Below, in pieces: positions 1,083 to 17,963 of a DNA stretch of 64,000 nucleotides. Origin of the DNA: a virus; the IMG/VR virus record IMGVR_UViG_3300035661_000042, positions 1 through 64,000 of that record. The stretch is one strand, 5' to 3'. Under the pieces are notes generated by a model. It saw only the letters and a program-made list of their open reading frames with translations, was not told the DNA's origin and made no database searches. Each line of letters starts with the position of its first letter. The stretch's first letter is position 1. The translations under genes were made by a program, and so were the position numbers.

Positions 1083-2924
1083 TTACAACGGCAGCAGCAG
1101 GAATTCGAGAACAGAACCCACTGGTGGTGCTGTAAAAAATACGACGTTTGTGGAAGTAATTGATGATACTCCTGTTTCTTTGTATGCCAGGTCTGTTGTA
1201 ATGCTTGTGTTTACGGGAGCAGAACTGGTTGGCATTGATTGGAAATAAGTACCAACACCGTATGAGATCGTTACATTCGATCCGTTGCCTGACGTATTGG
1301 ATTGAATTATCAAATCCATAGTATCATAACGTTGATCGAGGTTGACTGTTGCTGGAATTGTAAGCGTCGTAAATGCGGACGTCAAGCTTGCAACCATTTG
1401 AAGATACGTATACGAAGCTCCAACAACAATTGTTACACTTGAATATAGCGTTCCATCAACAGTAATATTGAACGCATATACTCCGTTAGGGATTCCAATC
1501 ACGCTCTTTGGACTAATTGGCGTATCTGTGAATGTGATTCTACTCATACCACGTTCGCAACAATATTGCTTAACACCGTCCATTGATATTGATAGACGAT
1601 TCTCGCTAACTTGGTATCCCATAAAAGCTGAAAGATTGAATGACGTAGTTGTTCCGTCACCAATCACAATCTGTCGTTCAATACGTTGCGTTAGACCAAT
1701 CAACGTTTGATCTAATGATCGAATTGCATTAGATGTAGGAATAACCGGGTATCCACCCGTCGCCACTTCTGAAATTATCAGAACACTTCGGCTGTACAGA
1801 GGAGATGCCAGATCGTACGTGATAGCGCCAGTTGTGTGCCCGTGGTTAAACGGTGCCATTGTGCCGGTTACTGTAACGTCAGGTAATCCGAGAGTACGCT
1901 GTAATGTCAGAACACCTGTTGAACTGGTGAACACACCACCATAAACCACACCGTCGCTGACCGCGGAAGGTGGTAGTCCTGCGATTGCGGTTAAAATTGC
2001 GGTATCTACATACAACTTGGTTGTAGCATCATTGTTGAGAGACGGAGCACCCAATTGCTGGATGCGAACAAGACCGAGGTTAATTGAACTCGAACCGCCG
2101 CCAACAAACGTGATAGAACCAGTCGACGAGAACGCCAAGTTCCCTGTCATTGTATCGCCAGTTGTCACAATAAAATTGGGCAGTTGGCTGTTAATGGTAG
2201 CAATATCACCCGTTAACACTGTGTCCGCATTACCACGTGTTATTGCCTCTGCATTAACCAATCCAGTTACAACCGCGTCTCTTGCATCAACGTATGATTT
2301 GTTTGCAACGTGCAATGCAGATGAAGGAGTATCAGTAACAGATACTGCAACACCGGCATTATATACGACCGTACCACCTGTAAATGTTGTTGCTCCCGCA
2401 GTAAACGCAACACCACCAGTAAGAGTTCCGCCCGCCAGCTGCAAGTACCGACCATCGGCCGTATTGCGATTGAGAGCATCTGTTCCGGATACTGCATTTC
2501 CAAGACTTGTGATCAGCGCGCCGCCCAAGTCAACATTACCAAAAATGTTAGCAGCAAGAACTGGGGTCCAAGCTGTTCCGCTGTATACAAATAGACCAGC
2601 TACCGTAGGGTCTGACGGAAACGAAGGATCGGTATAGTTTGCATTCTTGTACCAAATTTGGCCTTGAACGGGTGTAAGAGGCCGACTTTTATACGCAAAA
2701 TGCTCCATCAAGTAGACCAGATCATTCTGAACCAATTCACCGTAGTCGGTGATGCCTCGACCTGCAAGAACCAGCGAAGAGTTAGACGATAGTGCTGTTA
2801 ATCCTGATACAGGATTAACGTATAGTCCAGCAGACCACGGACGAGTTGTACCATCAATCTGATCAGATTGAACGAGAAACGACCCATTCGCTGGATCGGA
2901 GCGCTTTATGACGTAGTTGGACAT
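1083..2924 (-). CDS. Tail-fibre protein, paralogue of the 444-aa fibre
   Basis: The 613-aa protein opens with a domain (about residues 1-100) also found in the 444-aa protein at 10747-12081. Shared features are SDPxxGSF near the start, then LxGRG, GExVxxDLVxLxExFA and GQxW. The middle has fibre repeats with KSYVDARD and KLYVDTAIL segments that usually mark trimeric coiled or beta-helical fibre shafts, and an HGH motif (PFNHGHTTG). The C-terminal 200 residues are a different Thr/Ser-rich beta region. It has its own late promoter and follows the radical-SAM operon directly, so it would be made at the same stage of infection. Fibre role by homology; receptor unknown. Confidence 0.75.
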   Translation of the reverse strand: MSNYVIKRSDPANGSFLVQSDQIDGTTRPWSAGLYVNPVSGLTALSSNSSLVLAGRGITDYGELVQNDLVYLMEHFAYKSRPLTPVQGQIWYKNANYTDPSFPSDPTVAGLFVYSGTAWTPVLAANIFGNVDLGGALITSLGNAVSGTDALNRNTADGRYLQLAGGTLTGGVAFTAGATTFTGGTVVYNAGVAVSVTDTPSSALHVANKSYVDARDAVVTGLVNAEAITRGNADTVLTGDIATINSQLPNFIVTTGDTMTGNLAFSSTGSITFVGGGSSSINLGLVRIQQLGAPSLNNDATTKLYVDTAILTAIAGLPPSAVSDGVVYGGVFTSSTGVLTLQRTLGLPDVTVTGTMAPFNHGHTTGAITYDLASPLYSRSVLIISEVATGGYPVIPTSNAIRSLDQTLIGLTQRIERQIVIGDGTTTSFNLSAFMGYQVSENRLSISMDGVKQYCCERGMSRITFTDTPISPKSVIGIPNGVYAFNITVDGTLYSSVTIVVGASYTYLQMVASLTSAFTTLTIPATVNLDQRYDTMDLIIQSNTSGNGSNVTISYGVGTYFQSMPTSSAPVNTSITTDLAYKETGVSSITSTNVVFFTAPPVGSVLEFLLLPL

Positions 2925-2998: not shown

Positions 2999-4279
2999 TT
3001 AAACCATACGAATGTCGCTATTGAACAACAACTTGAAAGCAGCAAGTTGAATTGCGCGGTAGTGAGTCTTCTCAACTGCACAGTTGGTATAGTGCACTGC
3101 TTGACCCAAATCCAGCGGGCACGAACTCTTGCACAGCCGACGAACTTCACACGTTCCACAGTGATAATCACGATTTAGGTTGACTTGTTGAATCTTGATA
3201 CCTTTGAGGTACATCAAGTTCCCACCGTTGTAAGATTCGTCAACGTTTTGGCACGTCCGCACGTTACCAAGCAAATCCATTGTCAGCAGCCTGCTGTCGT
3301 CAACTCCGCAGTTGGATTTAAGCAGTGGAACCTTTTGTTCTTGGAGAGTGCGAGCAAACGGCAACACACCCAACCCCGTTTGGAATAGATTGTTCGCTAA
3401 CATATCGCCCTGTGTTGTTTCACCAAGGCGTCGGAACTGCTCAATATGCGAGTCCAAATAGCGAGTCAGGATCTCCTTATACAACGGGATATGTTCACCG
3501 CTAATAACATGGTGAGTTGAGTTTTCTGCCATCTCTTTGTCATATACTCTGCCCAGCTCATAACTCAACTGCTTATGTTTGAGGTTGTTCTGTTGGAAGA
3601 AGTCAAGAAAGAAGTCGTTAATTTTGAACAAATCGTAGTTTGTGCGACTAATCACAGGGTTGAAGCTATACTGGATCTTTTGACCACCCTCTTCTTCGAT
3701 CCGCTGAAAGATCTCAACCTTCTTGTGGATGAACTCTTTACCACGAAGCGTTTCATGACCGGGGCCGTCGTGTGAGATGCCCATTGCAACATTGCCCTTC
3801 AATTGTTTGAAGAAGTCGATGTGCTTGTGCATCAACGGCGTTCCGTTTGTCGGGACATACCACGTGATTCCTTCGCGGTCAAACTCTTCCATCAAAGGAA
3901 CCATATCCTTCCAGTACAGCAAGGTTTCACCGCCCCACAGCTCAAACCGGAGTAGTTCTGATAGGTCGAGGTGACGCTTGATCTTCTGGATTAGCATTGG
4001 GGTTAGCCCGTTCTCTGGCCTTTCGTTTGGATTACCGATGTCTTTTTGCATGCAGTATCCACAGCTATAATTACATCCTTGGCCAAGAGAAATTTTGATT
4101 GTTTCGGGGTTCTTTACAACATGTGTTGCGCCAAAGCGATCTTTCAGCTGATTCCACTCTGCTGGTTCTACAAATGGTTTGCTCAACGGGGCACCTGCAT
4201 CTGTGTACAACCCATTATTAGCGTTGTCATACAAGAAGTGTTCGCCAGTGCGAAGGATTTCAAATTTAGTTACACTCAT
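2999..4279 (-). CDS. Radical-SAM/SPASM peptide-modifying enzyme (rSAM-D)
   Basis: The 426-aa protein carries the radical-SAM motif CxxxCxxC as C69-C73-C76 (GQGCNYSCGYC), which binds the [4Fe-4S] cluster that cleaves S-adenosylmethionine. A GGE motif follows (LWGGETLLYW). The C-terminus is a SPASM-type auxiliary cluster domain: NCG, then LTMDLLGNVRTC, then CGTCEVRRLCKSSC (CX2CX5CX3C), and a last Cys in HYTNC. SPASM proteins typically modify ribosomal peptides through thioether or carbon-carbon links. About 60 residues precede the core and could bind a substrate leader. It is the last of four radical-SAM genes; its ATG overlaps the previous stop by 4 bp (ATGA). The substrate is inferred to be the 67-aa peptide. 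Confidence 0.88.
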   Translation of the reverse strand: MSVTKFEILRTGEHFLYDNANNGLYTDAGAPLSKPFVEPAEWNQLKDRFGATHVVKNPETIKISLGQGCNYSCGYCMQKDIGNPNERPENGLTPMLIQKIKRHLDLSELLRFELWGGETLLYWKDMVPLMEEFDREGITWYVPTNGTPLMHKHIDFFKQLKGNVAMGISHDGPGHETLRGKEFIHKKVEIFQRIEEEGGQKIQYSFNPVISRTNYDLFKINDFFLDFFQQNNLKHKQLSYELGRVYDKEMAENSTHHVISGEHIPLYKEILTRYLDSHIEQFRRLGETTQGDMLANNLFQTGLGVLPFARTLQEQKVPLLKSNCGVDDSRLLTMDLLGNVRTCQNVDESYNGGNLMYLKGIKIQQVNLNRDYHCGTCEVRRLCKSSCPLDLGQAVHYTNCAVEKTHYRAIQLAAFKLLFNSDIRMV

Positions 4280-5460
4280 GATGTGCTTTCAACGATGGGA
4301 ATATGTAGTGGAGGGCGCAGCGGAACAGGAGAAAACATAAAGAGTGGTCTCACAGCACCAGACGTACAGTTAGGATCAAACAATCCATATTGCGTTTCAA
4401 TCCATCCCTGTTCTTGCAGTTTACGGTACAACCGCACCCACGGTTTGAGTATGATGCGAGGCACAAAGTTGTAGTGTTGGTCAACGACTAAGGTTGACGA
4501 CAAGTATGAAAAGTACTCATAGTGCGGATTGTTTGTCTTATTGGTAATTTCCCGTGCATATCGCGCATACAAATCCAACTTTGCTTGAAGGCTCTTTGCA
4601 ATGAAATGATCTATGTCGATAATCCCGTCACGCATGATATCGTAGTAAGGAACACTCGATGCAGCGGTGGCGTCACTCAACGTGAGAAGAAGCGAAGTGT
4701 ATTGTAGATACACAACTTCGCTGATTACTTGCATTGGTTCCGATCCCTGTGCGTAGTAATTTAGCTCTTGGTAATCAACAGAATCAAGATTCAGACGTAA
4801 GTTTTGACCTTGGGTAATGTCATCATGCACCCCAACATATATTCCAAGCGAGTGTGCAAACTCGACAAATCGCACGACGGGCTCTGATTGTTCGCCATTA
4901 GCAGTGCGAACAATCACTTTCAGCTTTGAGATAGGAGAGCGTGCGTGAAGAAGTTTCAACTTTTCTATTACGTCATCAACCATTCGACCTTGTTTCTTTC
5001 CAAGAAACACATCACTAAATGAGATCTCGTACACGGTTTTGAATTGGACGTCTTCCATCATGATTTTGTACTGCTGTACGAACGCATTATCTGTCATCTG
5101 CGTTGAAGCCATGCGATGAGCGTTTCGTTTGTAAAAATCAAACAAATGTGGATAGTTGTTCTTGATGTAGTACAGGTCATCAATCGTGCTAATTGTGTCA
5201 AAGCAGTCGAAAAATTCAAGAATGCGCTTCTCTGTCGCCTCGCCAATCACATGAGGAACATATGCGTCAAACTTGTCATCTGGCATCCAAGCATCACGCA
5301 AGTAACACATCTTGCAGCCGGCCTTACACATATACTTGACGAAAATTGAGAACACAAGTTCACGAGAGATGTTTTCCAATGCATCCCACTTCAAGAAGTA
5401 TTCCTTGAAGTTAGTGCTATTTTCAACGCCCGGTGTTACCTGCTTTTCTGCTTCAATCAT
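4276..5460 (-). CDS. Divergent radical-SAM protein (rSAM-C)
   Basis: The ATG at 5460 is preferred because it forms an ATGA overlap with the upstream stop; an upstream start at 5550 would lie inside the neighbouring gene. The 394-aa product has C45-x3-C49-x2-C52 (MCKAGCKMCYLRD), the radical-SAM cluster motif. No GGEP motif and no Cys-rich SPASM domain are apparent. The region after the motif is Asp/Tyr-rich and unlike the other three enzymes. It may be a non-SPASM radical-SAM enzyme or a partner of the flanking ones. The third of four coupled genes, it is presumably made in step with the others. The call rests on the cluster motif plus context. Confidence 0.7.
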   Translation of the reverse strand: MIEAEKQVTPGVENSTNFKEYFLKWDALENISRELVFSIFVKYMCKAGCKMCYLRDAWMPDDKFDAYVPHVIGEATEKRILEFFDCFDTISTIDDLYYIKNNYPHLFDFYKRNAHRMASTQMTDNAFVQQYKIMMEDVQFKTVYEISFSDVFLGKKQGRMVDDVIEKLKLLHARSPISKLKVIVRTANGEQSEPVVRFVEFAHSLGIYVGVHDDITQGQNLRLNLDSVDYQELNYYAQGSEPMQVISEVVYLQYTSLLLTLSDATAASSVPYYDIMRDGIIDIDHFIAKSLQAKLDLYARYAREITNKTNNPHYEYFSYLSSTLVVDQHYNFVPRIILKPWVRLYRKLQEQGWIETQYGLFDPNCTSGAVRPLFMFSPVPLRPPLHIPIVESTS

Positions 5461-6536
5461 ATTCCTACCCAGTGGAAAAATGTTGGTTGTTGTTTGAGTT
5501 TTTGTGCGTGTTGTATTACTACCATCAACATCTGATAGAATTGAGCACATTTATCAGTTTCGGGGTCAGTTTCAAAGATTCCGTGCAGGTATTTCAATCC
5601 ACACAGATCCCTTGACGGACACACTTGACACTTTGGACGGAGCATCTGGTCTTCTTGCTCTTTTGTTTTGATTCGTTCAACAGATACAGGATCTCTCCAT
5701 CTGCCAACAGTAGTTTCTGTTCGTTTGTATTCAAGGAAATCAAACTCCGGATACAGGTATCCATCAGGTGACAGCACCAGTTGTTTGTGGTCGTTAAAGT
5801 AATGCTTGTCAAATCCGTTTCCGTGCCCGTCAATTACAACATCGATTCCCATCAGATATAGCATCTGAACAAACTTCAAAAAAGCATCAAAGAATTGTGG
5901 TAGATTGAGTTCATCGATAATAACACGAAACTTGTCCTTGCCACGAATGTGGCGCAGAGGAATCAATACAATTCGCCGCACATCGTTCTTGTGACAAATA
6001 TCAGTGATCGACTTTATTGCTGCGAGGCTGAATACTTTTGGATCCGTTACAGGCATTACGTACTGAAATTGCCTTCCACGTACTCCCGTTTCAGCCATCA
6101 TTTTCAGCGTTGGATTGATCTCAAACAGCGAGCGATTTAGGTCCTGATACATGAAGTCATAGCTGATGCTAATTTCCAACCGAGGACCCCACTTTTCAAA
6201 GAACCAACGGTGCTGCAAAATCTGACTTCCATTGGTTTGGATGTAGAATGGATAATCACCAGGCACAGATTGAACAATTGCATCCATCATTTTGTCCATA
6301 ATCTTCACATACGAGAATGGTTCACCACCGTGGAATGTGAACATTCCAGGAGGAGACGCAGCAATTCCTGACTTCTTGAAGAAGTCAATGATATACGGAA
6401 GATCGTCGAGCGTCATATGTTGCCCACCGATAGAATCTTTGATGTAATCTCGATCGCAATATGTGCAATTGAAGTTGCACACGTTTCCAAGATATATCGT
6501 AATCGTTCGGCACCCCGCAAGAGAGGTAGGAGACAT
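5457..6536 (-). CDS. Radical-SAM enzyme with C-terminal twitch/SPASM-like Cys cluster (rSAM-B)
   Basis: The 359-aa protein has C20-x3-C24-x2-C27 (VCNFNCTYC) near the N-terminus and a GGEP-type motif (FTFHGGEPF) about 40 residues later, both hallmarks of radical-SAM enzymes. Near the C-terminus lies KCQVCPSRDLC (CX2CX5C), then a distal Cys in TDKC, resembling a short SPASM or twitch auxiliary cluster. A beta strand with VLSPDGYLYPEFD precedes it, as in SPASM domains. The gene starts one base inside the stop of the 572-aa enzyme (TAATG) and ends in an ATGA overlap with the next. Activity on a peptide is inferred from family and operon. Confidence 0.87.
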   Translation of the reverse strand: MSPTSLAGCRTITIYLGNVCNFNCTYCDRDYIKDSIGGQHMTLDDLPYIIDFFKKSGIAASPPGMFTFHGGEPFSYVKIMDKMMDAIVQSVPGDYPFYIQTNGSQILQHRWFFEKWGPRLEISISYDFMYQDLNRSLFEINPTLKMMAETGVRGRQFQYVMPVTDPKVFSLAAIKSITDICHKNDVRRIVLIPLRHIRGKDKFRVIIDELNLPQFFDAFLKFVQMLYLMGIDVVIDGHGNGFDKHYFNDHKQLVLSPDGYLYPEFDFLEYKRTETTVGRWRDPVSVERIKTKEQEDQMLRPKCQVCPSRDLCGLKYLHGIFETDPETDKCAQFYQMLMVVIQHAQKLKQQPTFFHWVGI

Positions 6537-8254
6537 TACAGCTTGACTATTTTGTGCGGTTTCGATAAGCCATCACCCTTCTGGTTCAACAGAACCATAT
6601 GAACCAACGCAAGATAAAATGTGCGCTTGTTCACATCATTGATATCACCTTCTGAAACACTTGCTGTTACAGGCTTGCCCGCGGCAGTAAGGAGATATTC
6701 ATACAGGGCTTTGATATCAATAGGCCATGCAGTGATGGTAGGAACGTAATCATCAGCATCATCCAGTGCAGTGACCTTGTTTTCCATTAGACCAATAAAT
6801 TGACCAATGATTTGTTCATATGGTGGTAACTTATCAGCAAATTGATCGACTTCATCAATAGCCAAATGTACACGATTGATCTTGTTATACATCAAGTGTG
6901 TCAATGCCTTGGCAAACGTATACTGCTCACCCTTTGTTGCGACGGATTCAACCAGTTGTTGGAATTTTTGGTTGAACGTCTTACGCACAATGTCGTTTTG
7001 TAGTTCAAGGAATAGTCGAACAATGCTTTGACACATGGCATCAGGACGGAACAATCCACGACCCGTATCAGCTTGCCCTGCTGGACACTGATAACAGAAT
7101 CCCTTCAAGTCACAGGCTTGGCACTGTGGTTCCTTGATGAACATTTCGTTGTAAATGTCTTGGAAGCTTGCGTAGCGATCAACATATACCGCATCATGCA
7201 AGAGGTTTCCAAGGATTGTATGTGGGACAGACTCTTTGAGATTGGTGAAGAAGTGGCATCCAGAGAAATCGCCCGACGCATCGACAGCAATCATGTCAGA
7301 TCCAACCATGCAGTTGTTTCCACCCTTCGCGCCAACTCCCTCGGAAAACTGAACCTCAAAGTTTGGAAGTGTGTTGATTACTGTTAGCACACTTTGGTGC
7401 AAAGCTTCCCATCGTTCAGCATCCCACGTCAAGTGTCCGTCAACGGAACTGTTTGTAAGCGGGTGAATCACGATTGCACGGAGTCCCTTATCGTATAGCC
7501 GAGTGCAGAACTCTACAAGACGTGGAGCGTTCTCAATTGCGATTGTGCAACGCACGCTGACCATGTGATTATTTTTGTGGTATTCAGGAATCAACCCGAT
7601 CATGTCAATGATGCGGTCGATGCGGTCTTGCCCAATTTCACGGTGGTCGATTTCAGCAATGTCGGTGTCCAAACTAACGCTCATACACACGTGCTTGCTT
7701 TGAAAATATTCGTCAATGAACTGCGGCGTTAGCAGGATACCGTTGGTAATGATGCCAACAGCGGTTGTCGCAGAGTTCTTCTTTAATTCTGCGTCGTACG
7801 TACGGAGGAAATCAAGAATCAACTGCTTGTGAATCAACGGTTCACCACCAAAAAACTGAAACAGCTTACCAGTCTTTGGATTACAAGCGACGAGGAAATC
7901 ATACAGTTGCTTCAAGCTTTCAGGGGTAAATCGGCCGTAATCCTTATCGTGCTGTTCATAGCAATACGAACAGCTTAGGTTGCAAGCGTTGGTGACAATC
8001 AAGTTCATGTGTTGGAGGTCTTCAAACAACTCGTACACTGCTCCCGTCTTCATCACTCGTTCGGCTTGGTCAGGACGAATGGATTTATATGCAACTTCCT
8101 TTACGTCACCCCGCGGTGTAATAATCGTACGAACCGATGTGTCAAGTGTTCCATCAGCATTGACTTTGACAGAGGCTTGGTGTGAGTCAATTCGTTGCTG
8201 TTGAGCCTCCGTTAGCGCGCGCTTTGGATAGAATTTAACTTCTGTTGTTTTCAT
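6536..8254 (-). CDS. Radical-SAM/SPASM peptide maturase (rSAM-A)
   Basis: Start chosen at ATG 8254; an in-frame ATG at 8338 would overlap the preceding gene by about 100 bp. The 572-aa product has about 85 N-terminal residues that could bind a substrate leader, then C91-x3-C95-x2-C98 (ACNLSCSYCYE) and FFGGEPL. A complete SPASM domain follows: NNCMVGSDMIAVDASG with a later Cys (SGCHFF), then CQACDLKGFCYQC and a final Cys in DAMCQ. About 150 further residues form a helical extension. This architecture matches maturases of sactipeptides, ranthipeptides and related RiPPs. First and largest of four tandem radical-SAM genes, so it may be the main enzyme; the actual chemistry is unknown. Confidence 0.9.
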   Translation of the reverse strand: MKTTEVKFYPKRALTEAQQQRIDSHQASVKVNADGTLDTSVRTIITPRGDVKEVAYKSIRPDQAERVMKTGAVYELFEDLQHMNLIVTNACNLSCSYCYEQHDKDYGRFTPESLKQLYDFLVACNPKTGKLFQFFGGEPLIHKQLILDFLRTYDAELKKNSATTAVGIITNGILLTPQFIDEYFQSKHVCMSVSLDTDIAEIDHREIGQDRIDRIIDMIGLIPEYHKNNHMVSVRCTIAIENAPRLVEFCTRLYDKGLRAIVIHPLTNSSVDGHLTWDAERWEALHQSVLTVINTLPNFEVQFSEGVGAKGGNNCMVGSDMIAVDASGDFSGCHFFTNLKESVPHTILGNLLHDAVYVDRYASFQDIYNEMFIKEPQCQACDLKGFCYQCPAGQADTGRGLFRPDAMCQSIVRLFLELQNDIVRKTFNQKFQQLVESVATKGEQYTFAKALTHLMYNKINRVHLAIDEVDQFADKLPPYEQIIGQFIGLMENKVTALDDADDYVPTITAWPIDIKALYEYLLTAAGKPVTASVSEGDINDVNKRTFYLALVHMVLLNQKGDGLSKPHKIVKL

Positions 8255-9152: not shown

Positions 9153-9356
9153 TTACAGAATACCACGGGAGCAATTGCAGTTACAATTGCAATTGCAGGC
9201 GGTACTATAATCGTCATAGAAGATATGTGTGTGAGACACTAATTCATTCAAAATGCTAAGCATATTTTGAAATGTAGCAGCATTCACTTCATTACCTGCG
9301 GTAACAGTAGCAACTGTACCAGCAGCAGTTGTCTTTGTACTTGTGGATTCAGACAT
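9153..9356 (-). CDS. 67-aa Cys-Asn repeat peptide, candidate radical-SAM substrate
   Basis: A good ribosome-binding site (AAGGAAATACA before ATG) supports this small gene. Residues 1-20 are Ser/Thr-rich. Residues 25-50 (NAATFQNMLSILNELVSHTH then IFYDDY) contain H42-T-H44 and resemble the segment AADINVLIAMIN...VHSHT of the Hint protein encoded upstream. The C-terminus is ACNCNCNCNCSRGIL: five Cys (54, 56, 58, 60, 62) alternating with four Asn. Codons vary within the repeat (TGC/TGT, AAT/AAC), so it is not a simple recent expansion. With four radical-SAM genes directly downstream it fits a RiPP precursor whose core is the CN repeat. Unmodified metal binding by the Cys and HxH residues is the main alternative. 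Confidence 0.8.
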   Translation of the reverse strand: MSESTSTKTTAAGTVATVTAGNEVNAATFQNMLSILNELVSHTHIFYDDYSTACNCNCNCNCSRGIL

Positions 9357-9378
9357 TGTATTTCCTTTTTACTGTATG

Positions 9379-10737
9379 TTACAACACGGGAAGGGGTTGG
9401 ACAACAGGTAATTGAGGAATTACACTATCCCAGTCGAGCGTAGTATAGTCAAAGCCTGCTTGGTTGACACCGGCACCAACTACATATCCATTGACAATAA
9501 TTGGTGAACCGTTTGTGCGTGGAAGGTACAGTCGTGTGTTTGGATCAATAACTGATCCTGTACTTACTGTGTTAGTTTTCCATCCGTCTACGTGAGCCCA
9601 ATCAACAGCCTGATTGCCACCACGCATTGATTGATTATCTAACAGACCACCAATTTCCCCCGATGCTGCTTCTGCTTTCCACATTACTGGATTAGCTGAC
9701 CACCACCACTGTGATTGATTGGCATCACGTGTCCACATTGCGTGTTCTTCGGACCAGCTCAATGAATTGTCTTGGAATGTTTTCATACGGCGGCCGCCCA
9801 GGAACGGGCGGTCCATTGATATGACAGGTTCGGGATGACCCATTCCCATGATCATATCTCCCACATCAACGTCTTCAATCAATTTCCACGTTCCGTCTGC
9901 CATTAACACAAAACTACCGGCAGGAAAACAAGTGAGAACTGGTGGAACATATGTATATTCTGTACATTGAAGTGTGATTGAGGCAGTATCAAGTACTGCC
10001 AACGTCGAAGCGCTGCGAATTTGGACAGTTAATACTGATGTGATTGTGGTGTCTACTGCACCACTTGCAAGTGTCCACGAACGTGTAGTTCCAAGATTTA
10101 ACCACGTTCCAAGCGGAGATCCTGTCACAGATGATCCGCTTGATACTGTAACATACACATCGTAAGACGCTGCTGTCGTTAAGTCCACTGGCGCCATCGT
10201 ATTCCACTCAGCTCCTGTTGCTCCACCAGTATATGATAGTTGTCCATCATTAGCAAGGACGAGAGTAACAGAAGTTGGAGCAGAATCAGACCAACTATAC
10301 GTTTGAGCAGTTATGCTCGCCGTTTGACCCGTCACCCCAACACCGTCAGTAATCGTGTGTGAGTGAACCCGCATATTGTTGATCATGGCAATCAACACGT
10401 TAATGTCAGCAGCAGTAATTTGTGCATCAGTTGCAATTCCACCAGGCGTAGTAACAGCCCCGTATGCAGGCGTTGTTGCAAATGTTGTTTGTGATAGTAC
10501 TGTTCCACCTACCCCGTATGTTGTAACATTACCAAACGTATCAATTCCTTGAATATCTGTTGCACTGTGCGTATGACTGCGCCAGAGATTGTATACAGAG
10601 CTGTTGAGGCTGGCGAGATCAGACGCATATACAGACTTGCCCGCTGCCATCGCCACAATCAAGGCATTAACCACCGCTTGCATTGTTGCAATTGTGTATC
10701 CCAGAGGTGTAGAAGTTGTCGTTGAAACTTGTGGCAT
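9379..10737 (-). CDS. Tail-fibre protein with C-terminal Hint (hedgehog/intein-type) domain
   Basis: The 452-aa protein has two N-terminal helical segments, each ending in a His-x-His motif (LWRSHTHSATD near 52-61; VHSHTITDG near 124-132), followed by beta-sandwich-like sequence to about 265. A Hint domain begins at C270 (TCFPAGSFVLMADGTWKLI), with SWSEEHAMW as the conserved His block and SPIIVNGYVVGAG as the closing strand. Hint domains make an N-to-S acyl shift at the first Cys, which can cleave or ligate the protein. There is no C-terminal Asn-Cys splice junction, so splicing is not expected. A clear ribosome-binding site (AAGGACGGATC) precedes the ATG. It lies between a fibre gene and the Cys-Asn peptide gene. 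Function inferred as a virion tip protein. Confidence 0.8.
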   Translation of the reverse strand: MPQVSTTTSTPLGYTIATMQAVVNALIVAMAAGKSVYASDLASLNSSVYNLWRSHTHSATDIQGIDTFGNVTTYGVGGTVLSQTTFATTPAYGAVTTPGGIATDAQITAADINVLIAMINNMRVHSHTITDGVGVTGQTASITAQTYSWSDSAPTSVTLVLANDGQLSYTGGATGAEWNTMAPVDLTTAASYDVYVTVSSGSSVTGSPLGTWLNLGTTRSWTLASGAVDTTITSVLTVQIRSASTLAVLDTASITLQCTEYTYVPPVLTCFPAGSFVLMADGTWKLIEDVDVGDMIMGMGHPEPVISMDRPFLGGRRMKTFQDNSLSWSEEHAMWTRDANQSQWWWSANPVMWKAEAASGEIGGLLDNQSMRGGNQAVDWAHVDGWKTNTVSTGSVIDPNTRLYLPRTNGSPIIVNGYVVGAGVNQAGFDYTTLDWDSVIPQLPVVQPLPVL

Positions 10738-10746
10738 GATCCGTCC

Positions 10747-12081
10747 TTATGCGTACACAGCTGGATATACTTGCTTCCAGTTGCCGCCAGGAGGGCCGCC
10801 TGATCCACCGGCATTTGCGATATAGATTTTTCCCGAATCAATTGCAATGTCACCAGCTTTGTATACGCCAGACGTCCAGATGATAGGAACACCTGCGCCA
10901 ACACCTGCGCCAGCAATTGCTGCTGTCATTTGCGAAACGTTTACTGCATCGTTGGCATTTGTTCCAGTAGCAAGATTAACGATCTTGCTACTGTTCATGC
11001 TCAACTGTCCGCCGTTAATGTTGGCAGCACCACTAACGGTTAGTGTGCTACCAATCGATGCGGTTGTTCCAACAACCAAAGCACCACTTGCTGTTAGCGT
11101 GCCTCCTGATGTAATTGCACCCGCCGTTGAGATGGAGTTCAACGACGCCAACCCTGACGAAGATAGTGTTGTGAACGTGGAGTTCACGCTGTGTATGACA
11201 GTTCCAGCGCTGAACGTCACAGAACCTATTAGTGTACCACCAGATAATGGGAGGAACACGCCGGCGCCGCCACCTGATACCAAACTGGTTACTTGTGCCA
11301 GCGTTGTTGCATCTTGTGCACCAACGGCATTTGCCATTCCAGTAATTCTAAACGAACCCATTTCCAGATTACCGCTGGCCGTTGAAAGAGCCGCTCCTGT
11401 TGGACCAAGAATTTCCTGCCACGCAGCACCAGTGTATACAAGCAGATTACCTGTCGCTGTATTGTACCACAACATACCAGTAAGTGGTAGACTTGGAGTT
11501 GTGCCAGAGACGATAGTTCCTGACGGCGTATCCCACGTCGCTGTTGCTGCATTATAGACGTGAACGTTAATCTGGGGTGTAACTGCTGGGGAGATTGGTA
11601 CTGCACCCCCGATGATATAGGAACGTGGCAACCATGCAGCTGGTTCATACTTGCCAAGCGAATAGTAACCAAATAGAGTAACACCGTTGCTGTAATACTC
11701 ACCTTCAATTGGAGATACTGATGCAGTTCCTGATACAATGCCTGTGCCGTTGAGAAGTTTCCATTTGTTTGGAGCAACTTCCTTGATATCGTAGTAGTAC
11801 CACCCTTGCAGTACGTTACCGATCAAGGTATTACGATAGTACAGCGTTTGCTCTACCCACGTTTGACCGGTGATTGCGTAGCTTGGTGATGAAGCACTTG
11901 CAAAGTTTTCTGTCAAACGGACCAAGTCTTCGTCGACAGCCTCGCCCCATTCAAGTGCTCCGCGACCATACAACCGAAGAGATGTGTTGGCAGACGAACC
12001 ACCTGGGCCGTTGAAGCCGCCGGCTGGAATGCTAAAACTACCTTTTAGCGGGTCGGAAAAGTCGATTGCATATGCTGACAT
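10747..12081 (-). CDS. Tail-fibre protein, paralogue of the 613-aa fibre
   Basis: The 444-aa protein shares its N-terminal 90 residues in pattern with the protein at 1083-2924 (SDPLKGSF, LRLYGRG, GEAVDEDLVRLTENFA, GQTWVEQ). The rest is Gly/Ser/Thr-rich shaft sequence with GSVTFSAGTVIHS and STAGAITSGGTLTASGAL repeats. Its C-terminus (SGKIYIANAGGSGGPPGG) resembles carbohydrate-binding or tip modules that end in a Gly-rich stretch. It is first in the operon that continues into the Hint protein, the Cys-Asn peptide and the radical-SAM enzymes, behind a late promoter. Confidence 0.75.
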   Translation of the reverse strand: MSAYAIDFSDPLKGSFSIPAGGFNGPGGSSANTSLRLYGRGALEWGEAVDEDLVRLTENFASASSPSYAITGQTWVEQTLYYRNTLIGNVLQGWYYYDIKEVAPNKWKLLNGTGIVSGTASVSPIEGEYYSNGVTLFGYYSLGKYEPAAWLPRSYIIGGAVPISPAVTPQINVHVYNAATATWDTPSGTIVSGTTPSLPLTGMLWYNTATGNLLVYTGAAWQEILGPTGAALSTASGNLEMGSFRITGMANAVGAQDATTLAQVTSLVSGGGAGVFLPLSGGTLIGSVTFSAGTVIHSVNSTFTTLSSSGLASLNSISTAGAITSGGTLTASGALVVGTTASIGSTLTVSGAANINGGQLSMNSSKIVNLATGTNANDAVNVSQMTAAIAGAGVGAGVPIIWTSGVYKAGDIAIDSGKIYIANAGGSGGPPGGNWKQVYPAVYA

Positions 12082-16499: not shown

Positions 16500-17963
16500 T
16501 TACAAATACATCTCTACACCATTGCGGCGCAGGACTTCCTCAATTGCGTGCAATTCCCATATTTCATCTTTTGAAAGAGTATCGCCGTTATCTTGCTTCG
16601 CTTTGAGAAACTTGTGGTGATTGATTAGCTCACGAACCTTGTCTGGCGTTTCTGTGCCTGACCACTTTGGTGGATATGGACGGAATCGACGAGCCCCACC
16701 TTCGTAGTTAGGATCTACAATCGGGGCCAGTTCTGGAAGGATCTCCACTGGTTCTACCACTGGTTCTGGCTCTACAACTGGTTCTGGCTCTACCACTGGT
16801 TCTGGCTCTACAACTGGCTCTACCACTGGTTCTACCACTGGTTCTACCACTGGTTCTACCACTGGTTCTGGCTCTACCACTGGTTCTGGCTCTACCACTG
16901 GTTCTGGCTCTACCACTGGTTCTACCACTGGTTCTGGCTCTACCACTGGTTCTGGCTCTACCACTGGTTCTACCACTGGTTCTGGCTCTACCACTGGTTC
17001 TGGCTCTACAACTGGTTCTGGCTCTACAACTGGCTCTACCACTGGCTCTACAACTGGCTCTACAACTGGCTCTACAACTGGCTCTACAACTGGCTCTACC
17101 ACTGGTTCTGGCGGAGGAGCTGGTGCGGGAGGCATAGGCTCTGGCGGAGTAAATCCGTTGACGACAGGTGATGCCACATTGTCAAAATATGCGTTTTCTT
17201 CTGCCTCTTTGGCCGCCAGTTCTTCTCGGCGTAGCCGAAGCGCAATATTGACTGCAAGTGTAAGTGCAATTGCCATTGGATCAAAAGCAAAGATGATCAA
17301 GAAGATCAAGTACTTTGTTGCATTGTCAGTATCAAGTCCAAACGCCTTGGCGATATAGGTAATTGGACCAATGTGGGCTTCGGTCTTAATTGTTTCTTGT
17401 CTCAATGCAAGTAGTTGCGTGTCCAGTTCTGTTACTCGTTTAGTAACGGATTCTTGTTCAGCTTTGTACTGCTTAACGATAGACTCGCGTGATCGGGTTG
17501 TTTCGCGTAATGCACGAGTTGCGTTTGGATCAACATTGCCATCTTTTTTGTTGACAGAACCAACGGTAGGCCCCCCTGCGATTAGGTCGTCAATCTGTTT
17601 CTTACGAGCAAGACTTCGTACCTTCTCTTCATCAAGAAGTGAAATTTGTTCTTGCTTCTGTTTGAGAGGCAAAATATCCTGTTGATATCCAGACGACAAG
17701 TATCCAAAAATACCAAGCGAAGTCAGCATCGAGAGCACTGTAACGCCTGCAATTAAGTAGACTTTCAGTGCTAAATTGGTCTTAACCCAGTATCTGTACA
17801 GGTACGATACTGCCATCAACTTGCCAGCGCCAAGCGAGCCACCCATAATGATCACTGACCAAAATACGCCGCTGAATGTTGCAGCCAAGCCGATGACGCT
17901 GAAATATTCAGCGGACAAAGCAATCGCTGCTGTTGATAGAATCAACAAGAAGATGAAAAGCAT
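16500..17963 (-). CDS. Membrane protein with coiled coil and long VEP repeat
   Basis: The 487-aa protein begins with hydrophobic segments (about 2-21, 23-50 and 64-90), then a charged coiled-coil region (about 95-210: [36 protein letters not shown]) and another hydrophobic pair near 217-247 ([20 protein letters not shown]). From about 285 to 410 it is built of VEPVVEPEP-type repeats, an extended Pro/Glu rod like the periplasm-spanning part of TonB. About 75 C-terminal residues follow. A ribosome-binding site GGAGAATAGT precedes the ATG. It probably sits in the host inner membrane; function unknown. Confidence 0.75.
16745..17112. repeat. Tandem 6/12/18-bp coding repeat (VEP region)
   Basis: The stretch is made of GGTTCTACCACT and GGTTCTGGCTCTACCACT units (plus-strand reading), with CCACT/CAACT and GGTTCT/GGCTCT variants. 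All units are multiples of three bases, so copy number can change without breaking the reading frame. It encodes the Val-Glu-Pro rod of the membrane protein. Confidence 0.9.

Follow-up and report, generated by a model that had tools for sequence, protein, structure and literature searches.

Why should a small viral open reading frame end in a strict alternation of cysteine with a second residue, beside four genes of the radical SAM (rSAM) superfamily? We addressed this question for a 67-aa ORF in a 64,000-nt stretch of viral DNA (positions 1 to 64,000 of IMG/VR record IMGVR_UViG_3300035661_000042; hereafter the window), whose full translation is MSESTSTKTTAAGTVATVTAGNEVNAATFQNMLSILNELVSHTHIFYDDYSTACNCNCNCNCSRGIL and whose C terminus reads HTHIFYDDYSTACNCNCNCNCSRGIL (also given as ...NELVSHTHIFYDDYSTACNCNCNCNCSRGIL). 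A first-pass annotation had reported a Cys/Asn alternation at residues 54-62 followed by SRGIL, which was confirmed in the minus-strand translation; the core codons are non-identical (TGC AAT TGC AAT TGT AAC TGC AAT TGC). Downstream of this precursor-like ORF, on the same strand, lie ORF X, which starts 3 nt past its stop, and the rSAM genes A, B, C, and D, with overlaps of a few bases at the last three junctions (Table 1).

Table 1. Features of the window around the Cys-X tail.
Feature	Position (nt)	Strand	Remarks
Virion structural/fibre-like protein	1083..2924	minus	Downstream of the enzymes
rSAM D, radical SAM + SPASM-like Cys array	2999..4279	minus	Of the four, the only one closely related to enzymes next to siphophage CXC fibres
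rSAM C, divergent radical SAM (CKAGCKMC)	4276..5460	minus	No Pfam match; start from alignment, frame open to 5550
rSAM B, radical SAM + C-terminal Cys array	5457..6536	minus	
rSAM A, radical SAM/SPASM	6536..8254	minus	ATG chosen as common to homologues; frame open to 8338
ORF X, 304 aa	8235..9149	minus	In nearly every related locus; AlphaFold2 model pLDDT 90 (confident)
Precursor-like ORF, 67 aa	9153..9356	minus	Fibre-module 'leader' + C-terminal CNCNCNCNC-SRGIL tail
CNCNCNCNC core, residues 54-62	9171..9197	minus	Followed by SRGIL and stop
HTH of HxH motif in precursor	9225..9233	minus	H-x-H invariant in 27 aligned family members
AAGGA, ribosome-binding-site-like	9363..9367	minus	6 nt 5' of precursor ATG; read from sequence
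Upstream protein, 452 aa	9379..10737	minus	HxH fibre modules + C-terminal Hint domain (Pfam)
Hint domain (CFPAGSFVLMADGTWK...)	9379..9930	minus	Part of the 452-aa upstream protein
Tail-fibre-like protein	10747..12081	minus	YadA stalk and T7 tail fibre N-terminal matches

The Hint domain of the upstream protein shares 48.5% identity with the one that follows CNCDCNCSC in a fibre of Achromobacter phage 2-1. The one strong structural match of ORF X was to an uncharacterised Ralstonia phage RP12 protein, and its comparison with solved structures gave no confident match, the best (Z of about 6) covering the C-terminal Ig-like part only. Elsewhere in the window (16500-17963, minus strand), a 487-aa ORF carries a long repeat tract following apparent membrane segments.

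The association of tail and enzymes is conserved. An enzyme-first scan with a profile of rSAM B, built without precursor information, returned 47 IMG/VR loci; the strong matches were L011-L052 and the already known L005, and Cys-X tails were sought in the 42 loci L011-L052 (31 clusters at 95% identity of B). A Cys-X tail ORF with 3-6 Cys was found in 38/42, which is 38/38 of those whose contig reaches far enough; in the remaining four the contig edge cuts into the cassette, and for each of them a relative at ≥95% in B carries the tail. All four rSAM genes are present in 37 of the 38 tailed loci, the other (L047) being cut by the contig end, so that the proposed precursor-like ORF beside four rSAM genes proves to be a conserved unit, and four enzymes without a repeat, the finding that would have told against it, occurred in none of the covered loci. 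Gene order is P-A-B-C-D in 34 loci and A-B-C-D-P in 3, with the tail gene twice on the opposite strand. A tail-first scan, using a precursor profile and a pattern that included the first Cys and otherwise no part of the repeat, found 41 loci; the seven on new contigs all carry rSAM genes as far as the contig extends (7/7), with all four present in L126 and L127. Searches of INPHARED by tblastn with the window's precursor and enzymes B and C gave no convincing relative, and short matches in Acinetobacter, Pseudomonas, and Erwinia phages were dropped as antisense to annotated genes.

From the differing codons it had been argued that the repeat is maintained rather than newly expanded, and the family agrees: the alternation is kept in homologues of other phages, whose Cys codons show synonymous differences in 649 of 1,298 pairwise comparisons, and the Cys-X tail is thus not due to chance. 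A chance low-complexity ORF, for which small size is the one favourable point, is refuted by this persistence across divergent phages despite heavy synonymous change, and its likelihood is close to nil. The description of the repeat as Cys-Asn needs amendment: Cys alternation holds across the family, Asn does not, and since the intervening residue may be N, D, Q, E, or A, the conserved feature is a Cys-X alternation near the C terminus. Cores include CNCNCNCNC, CNCNCNCAC, CNCNCACAC, CNCNCNCNCNC, CDCNCNCDC, CDCNCDCNC, CECQCQCAC, and CECQCACAC, and further CDCQCQCDC, CECQCQC, CECQC, CQCQC, CDCNCNC, CNCNCAC, CQCQCACNCQC, and others. X1 is E, N, D, or Q, X2 is Q or N only, X3 is Q, A, N, or D, and X4 is A, N, or D; the RG right after the core is invariant (27/27 aligned members). 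When the identity of X2 (N or Q) is mapped onto the rSAM B tree, which has 31 rows and two weakly joined long branches, 2 changes suffice; shuffling requires 9.8 on average and never so few (0/500), a statistic inflated by near relatives. Cys number, in turn, varies inside the clades of that tree, with 4 Cys in L029 and 6 in its supported sister L032. Enzyme lineage and X type thus travel together and repeat number is freer; the first-pass annotation had proposed to look for unit numbers that vary while the alternation is kept, and this is the pattern seen, from 3 to 6 Cys and even between sister enzymes.

All four enzymes belong to the radical SAM superfamily. The CxxxCxxC motif is invariant in the alignments of A, B, C, and D (for C, seven sequences first aligned), and Pfam PF04055 matches A, B, and D above cut-off. 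Enzyme C has no match to it; by hhalign it aligns with A (E 9.5e-5), and the top 15 VIA-align rows of its model, of moderate quality (pLDDT 66), consist of radical SAM chains throughout (Z 8.5 to 6.6). Conserved Cys arrays are seen in the alignments of A, B, and D, and none is apparent in that of C. With the SPASM model TIGR04085, D scores 19.3 bits, below the cut-off of 27, and a siphophage relative of D 34.7, above it. The suggested link to thioether-forming enzymes is borne out by enzyme A, for which PapB is the nearest among NCBIfam models (124.7 bits, far below the cut-off of 340) and CteB the nearest solved structure, in a match spanning rSAM and SPASM (E 3.4e-20). Scores of A against the SCIFF maturase TIGR03974 (63.1 bits, cut-off 425), HxsB (57.7 bits, cut-off 370), and HxsC (40 bits, cut-off 267.9) all lie below threshold. 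We rejected a viperin-type (pVip defence) reading, as the NCBIfam viperin model gives D 43.4 bits against a cut-off of 180 and the PADLOC matches span the rSAM core only. In one locus (L013, 8399-9691) a fifth rSAM gene, A-like at 265 bits, is inserted between C and D.

A precursor-leader HMM run over 12,124 ORFs had as its best non-precursor matches the HxH protein adjoining the precursor, with E values of 2.5e-9 in L029, 1.8e-6 in L043, and 2.6e-5 in L017, and weaker ones elsewhere; the window's own HxH neighbour reaches E 2.9 only, and precursor and neighbour in the window both match phrog_31780 (E 0.0045 and 7e-11). The leader, called fibre-like from the start, is hence paralogous to the HxH fibre-module protein next to it, and the ORF looks like a short fibre-end protein with a RiPP-like core. 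Synteny and homology would place it on the virion. In the Ewingella contig the precursor is longer, at 123 aa, with an extra HxH module. The Hint domain was discarded as a required part, the upstream proteins of, e.g., L002 and L006 being shorter and without such a segment.

A second arrangement, in siphophages, brings tail and fibre together in a single protein. A locus with a weak rSAM B match (L053) encodes a 323-aa fibre-like protein ending in LGINCNCLCNCGG, followed by a 261-aa ORF and a D-like rSAM enzyme. By tblastn this enzyme led to the cultured Achromobacter phages 2-1 and JWF, in which a fibre CNCDCNC(NC)SC runs directly into a Hint domain, with the rSAM gene two genes further; siphophage fibre proteins either end in NCNCDCNC(C) or have the repeat run into Hint. 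The DNA pattern CXCXCXC-F-x-AG selected 16 IMG/VR stretches, all 16 with such proteins; 11 carry a D-like rSAM gene in the stretch, and for 4 of the other 5 one lies elsewhere in the record. A profile of D-like enzymes (A12) found at least 588 related viral stretches, of which the best 80 were examined. In 62/80 a same-strand protein ends in CXCXCXC or longer, or meets Hint; among these best 80, loci with at least 3.5 kb upstream have a CXC-tailed fibre, with the D-related gene lying shortly downstream of it, in 61/66 cases (37/40 clusters at 90%) and none by the strict pattern in 5/66, a proportion that may fail for distant members because the 80 are the most similar of at least 588. The same CXC-tail test on the opposite strand of these 80 gave 0/80. 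The D profile was the best of the four in all of the 80 best loci (median 136.5 bits for D, 43.7 for B, 25.6 for A, and 0 for C), and a single control, a Providencia phage fibre with Hint but no CXC tail, had no nearby open frame with an rSAM motif. In L088 (8459-9430), a D-like rSAM gene adjoins a Hint protein in which CPNCNCVCNCNYCNCNYNNCNCNCDCSC, a Cys/Asn-rich stretch of unusual length, precedes Hint.

A conserved Cys-X tail at the C terminus of fibre or fibre-module proteins goes with rSAM enzymes in each of two separate arrangements among phages. Our main reading is that the tail is modified by the adjacent rSAM enzymes and belongs to the fibre end, to which we assign a probability of about 0.62. 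A small ORF laid out as leader and core, next to several maturases and often to a DUF3050 protein, could also call to mind an ordinary secreted RiPP, an antibacterial or a signal, located among fibre genes by happenstance. We consider this highly improbable, given that the leader is a fibre-module paralogue, that the leader of L093 is fused to a further HxH module, and that siphophage tails, in the best 80 of at least 588 stretches, terminate fibre-like proteins of 110-690 aa. Nor was a transporter or peptidase noticed among the cassette genes.

If the tail is modified at the fibre end, as we favour, the N-terminal fibre module would serve as the docking part to the fibre, as the handle recognised by the enzymes, or probably as both, with the C-terminal (Cys-X)n tail as the likely substrate of the adjoining enzymes. 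Most likely these would take hydrogen from X (or a neighbour) and couple it to the adjacent cysteine sulfur, yielding a run of small thioether rings; a tip ringed in this way would be rigid, free of disulfide scrambling, and protease-resistant. The tail would be retained on the virion, where fibre homology suggests a role in host-surface contact. Enzyme D is the likeliest core enzyme, since its relatives appear to act alone beside siphophage fibres, with A-C adding or extending modifications; a counterpoint is that a single short tail has four enzymes, a number that points to more than a single reaction.

Thioether chemistry in the tail is the leading proposal, although we hold it tentatively and at somewhat under even odds. 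It leads because the Cys is invariant, because A is nearest to the PapB profile and the CteB structure, because PapB cross-links Cys-X0-Asp, if incompletely (PMC9413430), and because enteropeptins, with a six-membered thiomorpholine made of Cys and N-methylornithine, demonstrate that Cys can form a small ring with another residue (PMC12395415). Under mild CID, thioethers to an alpha carbon open, and those to beta or gamma carbons stay closed (PMC9413430). PapB has been described as requiring a thiol and a carboxylate. In the phage tails X2 is always an amide; Ala is frequent at X positions 3-4, which excludes a uniform Cys-to-carboxylate/amide bond at every step, and any thioethers formed would thus not all be of the PapB type. 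Taken as a whole, the interpretation offered by the first-pass annotation is partly, and in its main idea largely, supported.

Two other fates of the tail deserve weighing. Alternate residues point to one side of a beta strand, and some fibre tips hold iron through HxH motifs, so an unmodified tip in which a trimeric fibre stacks CXCXC thiolates from three chains around metal, with the enzymes acting on another target, would be compatible with HxH and CXC ligands at a fibre C terminus and with an X that tolerates N, D, Q, E, and A, a tolerance that marks Cys as the selected residue. The tight rSAM linkage in two different phage arrangements and the thioether-enzyme relatives of A would go unexplained, however, and we regard such a metal-binding tip as unlikely. 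Proteusin cores have a two-residue periodicity and frequent alternating Asn, a likeness to the strict periodicity of the tail that we take as a lead only. Epimerisation of alternate residues, as in polytheonamide-type proteusins, would yield an L-Cys/D-X tail folding as a beta-helix, and YydG, an rSAM peptide enzyme, is among the weak solved-structure matches of B and D; yet no proteusin epimerase model is among the NCBIfam matches listed and the invariance of Cys would be left without a reason, so that epimerisation, a shade ahead of the metal-binding tip, also seems a doubtful account.

Modification of fibre-end tails by their adjacent enzymes would concern cultured phages and, possibly, bacteria. 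Ralstonia phage PhiRP12 (L029, 279,845 bp) carries the whole cassette: ORF76, ORF77, ORF79, and ORF80, annotated as radical SAM, Fe-S oxidoreductase, MoaA, and MgoB in its published description (PMC5468394), correspond to A, B, D, and the locus's own DUF3050 gene. This DUF3050 gene, with a predicted di-iron heme-oxygenase-like fold (PMC4520260), is a frequent further partner of the cassette in many loci (e.g., L002 12747-13574, L095 8565-9359). A search for it in the window's 81-kb record, possibly a fragment, found none, and a control search likewise matched nowhere. GTDB genomes yielded nothing with the first small precursor profile and three loci with a broad rSAM B profile; contigs carrying the cassette belong to Ewingella americana E4, an Alteromonadales MAG, and a Bdellovibrio MAG. 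In the last, the cassette (L095 / L129) lies, by eye, among histidine-kinase-, FabH-, and FabG-like bacterial genes and adjoins three Peptidase_S74 proteins, of which one carries a methylation motif of pilin type (pseudopilin-like); one subfamily of Bdellovibrio MAT fibres ends in S74 domains (PMC10769870). The cassette is known there from one MAG contig only, which calls for caution. A second copy of rSAM C is found on the same contig.

The phage tail system falls outside the PapB, SCIFF, and HxsA-D families by their cut-offs. Ranthipeptides (PapA/PapB, SCIFF/CteB) are alike in placing a Cys-rich peptide beside an rSAM/SPASM enzyme to which A is nearest by profile, and differ from the four rSAM enzymes, the alternating C-X without spacer residues, the phage fibre-module leader, and the scores far below cut-offs found here. 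Sactipeptides, and enteropeptins especially, would share the rSAM thioether chemistry that we propose, but they are free antimicrobial peptides, whereas the phage tails are on fibre-end proteins. The His-Xaa-Ser system (HxsA-D) likewise combines a periodic repeat at the C terminus with at least two rSAM enzymes; here the repeat is Cys-X, the carriers are mainly phages, and HxsB/HxsC scores are far below cut-off. In Achromobacter phage JWF, a 'Hom_end-associated Hint family protein' has CNCDCNCNCSC before Hint and an rSAM gene two genes on; unlike in the window, there is one rSAM gene and the tail is fused to a full fibre, and the record annotation does not connect the two. The available part of the PhiRP12/PhiRP31 paper puts the ORFs under 'other genes' and mentions no Cys-X protein or fibre link (PMC5468394). 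The gene layout is that of a RiPP in the wide sense, with a leader and core precursor next to maturase genes and the modification itself predicted, and we propose by analogy that it works like a RiPP system on a structural protein.

The conserved tails beside rSAM enzymes suggest that phages chemically remodel fibre tips in an undescribed way; in the open-access literature, most subscription papers being outside the search, we found no description of such tips. In its broadest form, the proposal is that Cys-X fibre tips of many tailed phages and at least one Bdellovibrio lineage are covalently remodelled by dedicated radical SAM enzymes, an undescribed maturation of virion proteins with a one-enzyme form (fibre-fused, sometimes Hint-processed) and a four-enzyme form (separate tip protein), and we see the chances of this as evenly balanced. 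Fibre tips determine which bacterium a phage binds; if the proposal is true, sequence-based or recombinant views of them miss part of the real binding surface. RiPP-type chemistry would then extend from small secreted peptides to virion structural proteins, and phrog_1802, a large rSAM family of phages (D-like relatives in at least 588 viral stretches) currently labelled just 'radical SAM domain-containing protein', would gain a function. The model is directly testable in the cultured phages JWF, 2-1, and PhiRP12.

A possible further cassette came to light in Erwinia phage vB_EamM_Caitlin (L075 6906-10269, gp174-gp171), where a 68-aa protein ending in SHYNCGGSCSWTCSGGCSHGAGNR is followed by a 295-aa ORF and two rSAM genes. 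One of these is PapB-like by profile at 129.5 bits, below cut-off; overall this appears to be a Cys-rich rSAM cassette built to another plan.
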